Of a stretch of DNA of 52,692 nt, positions 12,063-49,673 are shown one piece after another. Location: the NCBI GenBank assembly GCA_037147175.1, contig JBAWVS010000015.1:1-52692 (forward strand), in the 5' to 3' direction. This stretch comes from a bacterium (GTDB lineage: Bacteria > Cyanobacteriota > Vampirovibrionia > Gastranaerophilales > UBA9971). The notes under the pieces are model-generated. The model worked only from the letters and a program-made list of their open reading frames with translations, was not told the origin of the DNA and ran no database searches. The position numbers and the translations under genes were made by a program. The stretch's first letter is position 1. Each line of letters starts with the position of its first letter.

Positions 12063-12452
12063 TCAATGGCGTAAAATAAAGTAAAATTTGATTATTTTAG
12101 GCAAAAACAGCATCGAGCCAACTATTATTGAGCTTATTGCGATTAGCAAAACAGCTCCTGCCGCTATATCTTTTGACATTTTGGCTATAACCGAGTATCT
12201 GTTGCCGTAATAAGCGTCCATAACAAATTCAATAACCGTATTCATAAGTTCCGCAAACAAAACAGCATTTATCGTCAAAATAAGAACGGCAAGTTCAATA
12301 AATGAAAAGTGAAGAAAAATCGCCAGTATAAAGATAAAAATTCCGAAAATAAAATCAAACCGAAAGTTTCTCTGGGATTTTAATGCGAGCGCAATTCCCC
12401 TATATGCGTATGTCAGGCTTTTGAACATGCTGTTATTTTTGTATTTTGACAT
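12063..12452 (-). CDS. dgkA: diacylglycerol/undecaprenol kinase, DgkA family
   Basis: A 129-aa integral membrane kinase with three helices (about 35-52, 55-75 and 97-120). The family signature AELMNTVIEFVMDA covers the catalytic Glu and the Asn-Thr-Ile-Glu metal/ATP motif, and KDIAAGAVLL matches the second conserved block. Family members phosphorylate diacylglycerol (Gram-negative) or undecaprenol (Gram-positive); sequence alone does not decide which. It lies directly upstream of pheS on the same strand, and its end overlaps the likely pheS promoter region. Confidence 0.88.
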   Translation of the reverse strand: MSKYKNNSMFKSLTYAYRGIALALKSQRNFRFDFIFGIFIFILAIFLHFSFIELAVLILTINAVLFAELMNTVIEFVMDAYYGNRYSVIAKMSKDIAAGAVLLIAISSIIVGSMLFLPKIIKFYFILRH

Positions 12453-12637: not shown

Positions 12638-12670
12638 GCAATTTTTTCTATATCGATGTTTTTATATATG
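12638..12670 (+). promoter_or_regulatory. candidate promoter of the G-free RNA, GCAATTTTTT block
   Basis: GCAATTTTTT is followed 25-27 nt later by TATATATG. The block is identical to those ahead of several orphan genes, but the spacing to the TATA stretch is 4-6 nt shorter than in the others. Confidence 0.4.
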
Positions 12671-12673
12671 TAC

Positions 12674-12832
12674 AAGGACAAAACAAACACAACACACTAC
12701 CTGAACAAAAAGCCAAAAATTCAATAATCAAAACCTTTTATACACTTACCTACCTACCTTCCCTTACCTACCCCACACCACCTTACCTACCAAACACAAG
12801 TTTAAGACAGTTTAACAACTGTCCTTTTTTTT
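12674..12832 (+). ncRNA. candidate small RNA, almost free of G, with three TTACCTACC repeats
   Basis: This stretch of about 160 nt runs from a promoter-like TATATATG to an intrinsic terminator. Between 12713 and 12799 there is not one G, and only two occur in 12678-12799. TTACCTACC occurs three times, starting at 12746, 12764 and 12783 (18- and 19-nt spacing). The body would be single-stranded and could pair with G-rich targets such as GGTAGG. No open frame of useful length exists; an ATG at 12668 opens only 19 codons with no ribosome-binding site. That this is transcribed is an inference. Confidence 0.45.
12806..12832 (+). terminator. terminator of the candidate small RNA
   Basis: GACAGTT-TAAC-AACTGTC is a perfect 7-bp stem followed by C and eight T. 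No plus-strand protein gene lies within several hundred bases upstream that it could terminate, which is the main support for an RNA gene here. Confidence 0.8.
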
Positions 12833-12906: not shown

Positions 12907-13671
12907 ATGAAAATAGCTATAATTTCTGATATACATGGAAATTTAGAAGCGCTTAATGCCGTATTGCAAGATATAGAATCACAGGAAATAAATAAAATTT
13001 TTATTTGCGGAGACCTTGCAATGGCAGGCTCTGAACCGGAAAAAACCGTTGATAGAATTATTGGACTTACAAAAGAAAAAGATGTTGCTATAATTCTCGG
13101 AAATACTGATGAGATGATTATAAAATCAAGCGGTAAAACAGGAGATGAATTCACTCCTGCGGATGAAACAATGGCGGCCTCTTTAAAATTTACGCAAAAA
13201 TTTTTAAGGGCGGATCAAATTGAATTTTTAAAAAATCTTCCGCTTAAACATAAAGAAAAAATCGGCGAGCTGGAAATTTTGCTTGTACATGGTTCTCCAA
13301 GAAAAATAAATGAAAACATTTCTCCTGATTTAGAGGAAAAAATTCTAAAAGAAATGCTTTCAGGAACACAAGAAGATATAATTTTTTGCGGACACACACA
13401 TCTTCCTGTTGTTTATAAAATAGAAAAACAAACTATTGTTAATGTTGGCAGTGTCGGAAGACCTTTTACAGAAAACCCTGATGCTTGTTATGCCATTTTA
13501 GACTATTCAACTTCCGCTAACTGCAACAAAATTTTTGACATTTCCCACAGGTTTGTAAAATACGACAAGGAAACAACCGCAAAAAAATTGCAAAAACTTC
13601 CTTTTAAAGGGAGTGGCAAGCTTGCACAGGTAATTTTGCACCCCAAAGACAGGTATAAGCTTTTTAAATAA
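12907..13671 (+). CDS. metallophosphoesterase (calcineurin-like, YfcE/MJ0936-like)
   Basis: A 254-aa binuclear metal phosphoesterase. Motifs in order: SDIHGN (residues 8-13, metal ligands D and H), CGDLAM, LGNTDE (a variant of GNHE), VHGSPR and FCGHTHLP near residues 160-170. VNVGSVGRP follows, typical of small bacterial phosphodiesterases of the YfcE type. The residues beyond 205 form an extension of unknown role. AGAGGA precedes the ATG. The substrate is unknown; the family ranges over phosphodiesters, nucleotides and sugar phosphates. Confidence 0.85.
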   Translation: MKIAIISDIHGNLEALNAVLQDIESQEINKIFICGDLAMAGSEPEKTVDRIIGLTKEKDVAIILGNTDEMIIKSSGKTGDEFTPADETMAASLKFTQKFLRADQIEFLKNLPLKHKEKIGELEILLVHGSPRKINENISPDLEEKILKEMLSGTQEDIIFCGHTHLPVVYKIEKQTIVNVGSVGRPFTENPDACYAILDYSTSANCNKIFDISHRFVKYDKETTAKKLQKLPFKGSGKLAQVILHPKDRYKLFK

Positions 13672-49636: not shown

Positions 49637-49673
49637 GCACTTTTCTCAACTTGATTGTTTTTATTAATATATA
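49637..49673 (+). promoter_or_regulatory. promoter of the Ser-rich peptide gene, GCACTTTTCT block
   Basis: GCACTTTTCT is a two-base variant of the shared block. TTG and TTTTTA occupy the same spacer positions as at 7586-7622, and TATATA begins exactly 31 nt after the first base. Confidence 0.5.

Follow-up and report, generated by a model that had tools for sequence, protein, structure and literature searches.

The intergenic region between dgkA and a phosphoesterase gene is best read, from its sequence, as holding a gene for a non-coding small RNA (sRNA) with an intrinsic terminator, a member of a multicopy family found in one family of the Gastranaerophilales, a non-photosynthetic cyanobacterial relative. 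It is very probable that this is a real sRNA gene family. The family, its conservation, its shared promoter and, in most copies, a complementarity to a second sRNA above that of shuffled sequences were all observed computationally. The best explanation overall, to which we would give about an even chance, is an sRNA that is present in several copies and acts by base-pairing, with a co-regulated partner or sponge. In literature searches, no account was found of small RNAs from this sister group of cyanobacteria, which is uncultured. The elements of the gene, together with a second site of its promoter motif, lie as follows in the window, that is, the whole stretch of 52,692 nt that was analyzed:

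12638 to 12643, plus strand: upstream promoter element GCAATT, followed by a fixed 13-nt gap to the next element
12657 to 12672, plus strand: downstream promoter element TGTTTTTATATATGTA, identical in 6/6 promoter-driven copies of the genome and kept in relatives
12672 to 12832, plus strand: predicted sRNA of about 155-161 nt, placed between the promoter and the terminator T-run
12681 to 12702, plus strand: A/C-rich conserved 5' module AAACAAACACAACACACTACCT, matched 12 times across 192 genomes of the order, each time in a copy of the sRNA, against 1 match for the reversed pattern
12713 to 12799, plus strand: G-free run with a C-rich array and three TTACCTACC repeats; its words UUCCCUU and UUACC are conserved across copies
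12806 to 12832, plus strand: intrinsic terminator GACAGTT-TAAC-AACTGTC with T-run, whose GACAG.../...CTGTC stem is kept across genera
49637 to 49671, plus strand: second promoter-motif site, GCACTTTTCTCAACTTGATTGTTTTTATTAATATA, with 2 mismatches, upstream of a 71-aa ORF (ATG at about 49734)

The unusual composition of the window copy was verified against simulated sequence. Its G-free run, 87 nt long and 39% C as the original prediction had it in length, is the longest in the window and exceeds all 200 first-order Markov simulations of it (mean 54.6, maximum 83); the runner-up, at 81 nt, has 15% C and is simply AT-rich. The three TTACCTACC repeats, at 12746, 12764 and 12783, compare with 0.13 expected, and three were reached in 0/100 shuffles. 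The second of them is immediately preceded by TTCCCTT. The claim of two G in about 120 nt needed correction, the actual number being three G in 127 nt (12678-12804). The terminator, GACAGTTTAACAACTGTC-CTTTTTTTT, is the sole one in the region (0.1 expected), and it is indeed unneeded by any nearby gene: dgkA (12063-12452) is a minus-strand gene, and that for the phosphoesterase starts only at 12907. The body was also said to be unable to fold on itself, and the predicted fold agrees (z -0.45): apart from the terminator, it has a single weak stem of 4 bp, and the two lie 3' of the array. Since the body of the window copy contains no ATG, GTG or TTG, a coding reading of it was rejected; several other copies lack start codons in the body as well. 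The 5' end was placed at about 12672-12678 from its position after the promoter, and the 3' end at the terminator T-run.

Pattern and similarity searches, on which all copy counts in the genome itself (G000) rest, gave six promoter-driven copies, a minimum for the genome: the window copy on contig C15 and five from the similarity search, on C24, C37 (a tandem pair), C47 and C52. A further match on C11 covers the 3' part of the sRNA only. Recognizable homologues occur in 7/9 other genomes of the family, thus in 8/10 including G000: G001 (UBA9971), G002 (Melainabacteria GWA2_34_9), G003, G004, G005, G007 (Caenarcanum) and G009, those of G004 being the most divergent. On the RNA strand, the copies have a common layout: the promoter GCAATT-N13-TGTTTTTATATATRTA (also written with TGTTTTTATATATRTACAAG), the A/C-rich 5' module, an AU-rich stretch, the C-rich array and the GACAGTT terminator. 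The array differs among copies in length and in unit (CCTACC, CCCTTT, CCTTA or CCCTAA), and some copies additionally carry a GGCGCTACTAGA-type module between array and terminator. The C24 copy (G000:C24:7472-7650) keeps promoter, 5' module and terminator around a G-containing middle, in which GAGGCGCTACTAGA replaces the C-rich array; this GAGGCGCTACTAGA module recurs 3' of the array in the G001 and G002 copies. Several loci, with gene names by our own reading of the translations, are occupied in more than one genome:

dgkA/phosphoesterase locus: C15 in G000; C76/C135 in G002
murT/asnS locus: C24 in G000; C111 in G002; C146 in G007
mgtE/PRC-barrel-like gene locus: C47 in G000; C148 in G001
comM-like gene locus: C52 in G000; C70 in G002

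In addition, the C82 copy of G001 lies between asnS and dgkA, and the C37 tandem pair lies upstream of fliD. That promoter, 5' module, array and terminator are retained at a number of syntenic loci strongly supports the predicted small, unstructured, C-rich RNA. The copies could also be a functionless mobile or satellite-like repeat, as their number and low-complexity array, the transposase-like fragment adjoining the C47 copy and the missing array of the C24 copy might suggest. We consider this highly unlikely, since copies sit at conserved syntenic loci, the sRNA is present in 8/10 genomes, and promoter and terminator are conserved around a variable middle. Over the promoter and 5' part, four copies of G000 share 95-99% identity, against 69-72% with the mgtE-locus copies of G001, while the G001 copies are nearest to each other or to G002 copies. 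These identities indicate that the copies are homogenized within a genome, i.e., by concerted evolution, which suggests that the RNA sequence itself, and not merely the loci, is maintained. No known Rfam family was matched: none of the Rfam sRNA families reached its gathering score in the window, and six member loci searched for Yfr gave no match at E-values of 5 or below.

The original prediction had looked to close relatives for both the terminator and the TTACCTACC repeats. The terminator is kept there, but the doubled TTACCTACC was seen in the window copy only and was rejected as a conserved element. Instead, shorter words recur in the arrays. UUCCCUU is present in 10/12 arrays (0.8 expected), in other genera too, and UUACC in 12/12; either count was reached by 0-2/300 shuffles, for words picked after inspecting the arrays of the 12 copies. 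CCUUAC is also among the conserved words. On the other hand, CUC, the anti-Shine-Dalgarno core that would pair with GAGG/AGGAG, is depleted (6 vs 15.4 expected, 0/300 shuffles).

The promoter-like block noted earlier is present, but it has no sigma-70 consensus and its motif is lineage-specific; an ordinary sigma-70 promoter was rejected, with no consensus match at the site. Genome-wide, GCAATT-N13-TGTTTTTATANANATA has 74 matches at up to 3 mismatches, compared with 6 for the reversed pattern. Among the 41 sites inspected, which have no more than 2 mismatches, the majority are closely followed by an ORF with a ribosome site. About 40 genome sites carry the motif, mainly at hypothetical protein genes (e.g., C7:35813, C28:1907 and C18:37878), and the motif is also found ahead of protein genes across the order. 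The proteins of this regulon are chiefly hypothetical with low-complexity N-termini, those with domains including a subtilase and an L,D-transpeptidase. Four loci with the same promoter (L041, L061, L055 and L097) have long leaders with repeated GGGTAA-type units, some ahead of protein genes. We infer that the promoter is of an alternative-sigma type. A sigma factor of the FliA/WhiG class, found above the curated cut-off in 26/30 genomes and encoded here at G000:C27:27049, is a candidate reader of GCAATT-N13-TGTTTTTATA. The genome has a flagellar operon (C53) and, besides it, a divergent export set with FliF/FliI/FlhA-like genes, from which the regulon could be a secretome of candidate secreted proteins. 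The second set, at G000:C31:14000-22000 (L180), scores below the equivalog cut-offs of flagellar and injectisome models alike.

Two co-regulated RNAs stood out in the pairing tests, a G-rich sRNA on C42 and the leader at C23:20601. The G-rich sRNA (G000:C42:5506-5607, L184) has the same promoter as the C-rich sRNA, its own terminator and GGAAAGG repeats. Homologues in both congeners (L185, L186) make it conserved in three genomes, with the core GAAAGGGAAAA...GGAAAGGAAAGGAAAG; beyond the genus, no convincing homologue turned up. The G-rich sRNA lies near a phage-terminase-like gene in G000 and G001, two of these three genomes. Its conserved AAGGGAA is complementary to UUCCCUU. Against 300 dinucleotide-shuffled arrays, the predicted duplex with the G-rich sRNA was equaled by 1 for C37b (-38.4 kcal/mol), 3 for C52 (-32.7 kcal/mol), 14 for C47 (-26.8 kcal/mol), 0 for the G002 copy (-18.0 kcal/mol), and 2, 2 and 13 for the G001 copies. 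The window copy itself is weakly above shuffles (47/300). Shuffling the G-rich side instead gave weaker support for several pairs (9-52/200). Both sRNAs are of low complexity, so the shuffles understate how readily complementarity arises by chance, and several tests of pairing were made. Because of this, and because the words were chosen post hoc, we treat the G-rich sRNA as the likely partner, the likeliest found; base-pairing with it has, on these predicted duplexes, an evenly balanced probability of being the main mechanism.

The array might instead pair directly with purine-rich co-regulated leaders, blocking or exposing ribosome sites in the manner of LhrC, the G-rich sRNA then being incidental. 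Regulon leaders do pair more strongly with the array than the other leaders of the window (mean -19 to -24 vs about -12.6 kcal/mol). The leader at G000:C23:20601, of a 158-aa protein, beats shuffled arrays for 4/4 copies tested, and its G001 ortholog retains GGGAAGGAGCAAGG ahead of the ATG. Nevertheless, the general advantage of leaders is one of purine composition, as the arrays compared with shuffled arrays have mean z-scores of -0.1 to -0.3. Complementary 6-mers are not enriched in the regulon leaders (76 vs 100 +- 15 permuted), so that the GGTAGG-like targets near start codons envisaged earlier found no support in the regulon leaders searched. With CUC avoided and leaders unmatched beyond composition, the array was also rejected as a general anti-Shine-Dalgarno blocker. 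Direct leader pairing as the principal mode of action is therefore unlikely, and a few purine-rich regulon leaders may be further targets of a base-pairing sRNA.

A protein could also be the target. Hfq was found in 0/21 genomes (Pfam), and Hfq dependence was rejected on this ground. Instead of base-pairing, the RNA could be a decoy whose repeated CC or UUACC units are read by a protein that binds single-stranded RNA, and the long unstructured G-free body, the many short repeats, the variable array length, the multicopy dosage and the undetected Hfq fit this. Yet a candidate protein that binds C-rich RNA was not found, this reading offers no explanation for the complementary G-rich sRNA that shares the promoter, and CsrA, encoded in 16/21 genomes, has the known target GGA, which is absent from the array. 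We regard such a decoy as distinctly unlikely. A CsrA role was considered for the G-rich RNA, which has GGA repeats in a genome that encodes CsrA. Rho prefers C-rich, G-poor, unstructured RNA, and the composition would accordingly fit a Rho decoy or rut-like RNA. This reading was rejected as extremely improbable: Rho reaches the TIGR00767 cut-off in 0/60 Gastranaerophilales genomes, the matches being other ATPases of the F1/FliI kind. To our knowledge, cyanobacteria likewise are without Rho.

Known systems offer parallels to a base-pairing sRNA with a co-regulated partner. In cyanobacteria, the single-stranded motif of Yfr1 is nearly complementary to Yfr2, itself a multicopy family of sRNAs, and crosstalk has been demonstrated (PMC6778093). 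Here, too, there is a complementary sRNA pair with one multicopy member, in a sister lineage; unlike in Yfr1/Yfr2, it is the C-rich member that is multicopy, the RNA is longer, the motif is different and Rfam gives no match. The comparison with Yfr1 in the original prediction was thus a good lead on the mode of action, but kinship is not supported, as there is no Rfam or Yfr match and the two stem loops between which the Yfr1 motif is single-stranded are absent. SisA-D of Caulobacter are sibling sRNAs with a common pairing motif, which carry an anti-Shine-Dalgarno 10-mer, were found with Hfq and are countered by one sponge, CrfA (PMC12559287). The family described here resembles them as a set of siblings facing another sRNA to which most copies, though not clearly the window copy, are complementary above shuffled sequence, and differs in that the anti-Shine-Dalgarno core is avoided and Hfq was not detected. 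LhrC1-5 of Listeria are multicopy, G-poor sRNAs with redundant CU-rich (UCCC) sites, partly in stem-loops, that bind their targets at a G-rich site ahead of the start codon (PMC4132741). Several similar G-poor copies per genome (six promoter-driven here) are a shared trait. Of the UCCC or CCUCC motif of LhrC and anti-Shine-Dalgarno sRNAs, UUCCC is conserved here, while CUC is avoided and leaders are unmatched beyond composition; in contrast to LhrC, the array is single, unstructured and hypervariable, with no general match to leaders. Because an Rfam match and stem loops are missing for Yfr1, and Hfq for SisA-D/CrfA, we count the family as a member of neither. By analogy it is best read as a variant of the Yfr1, SisA-D/CrfA or LhrC kinds, and it would work like Yfr1/Yfr2 or SisA-D/CrfA.

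We propose that the alternative-sigma-type promoter, common to about 40 genome sites, would transcribe a largely unstructured RNA, whose C-rich array would display repeated single-stranded pairing sites, UUCCCUU and UUACC. The array would most likely act by base-pairing, and with the co-regulated G-rich sRNA, the best-supported partner, it would engage in mutual titration as sRNA and sponge. A more specific version is possible though doubtful: a family-specific two-sRNA switch, in which the homogenized, G-free C-rich sRNA and the co-transcribed G-rich sRNA would neutralize each other via repeat arrays of variable length and so set the output of candidate secreted proteins from the alternative-sigma regulon, in genomes where neither Hfq nor Rho was found.

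A multicopy sRNA family that evolves in concert, carries a hypervariable array for pairing and has a complementary, co-regulated partner would reveal how an sRNA-sponge circuit can operate in genomes without detected Hfq. The shared promoter also gives an immediate handle on an uncharacterized regulon of about 40 sites.
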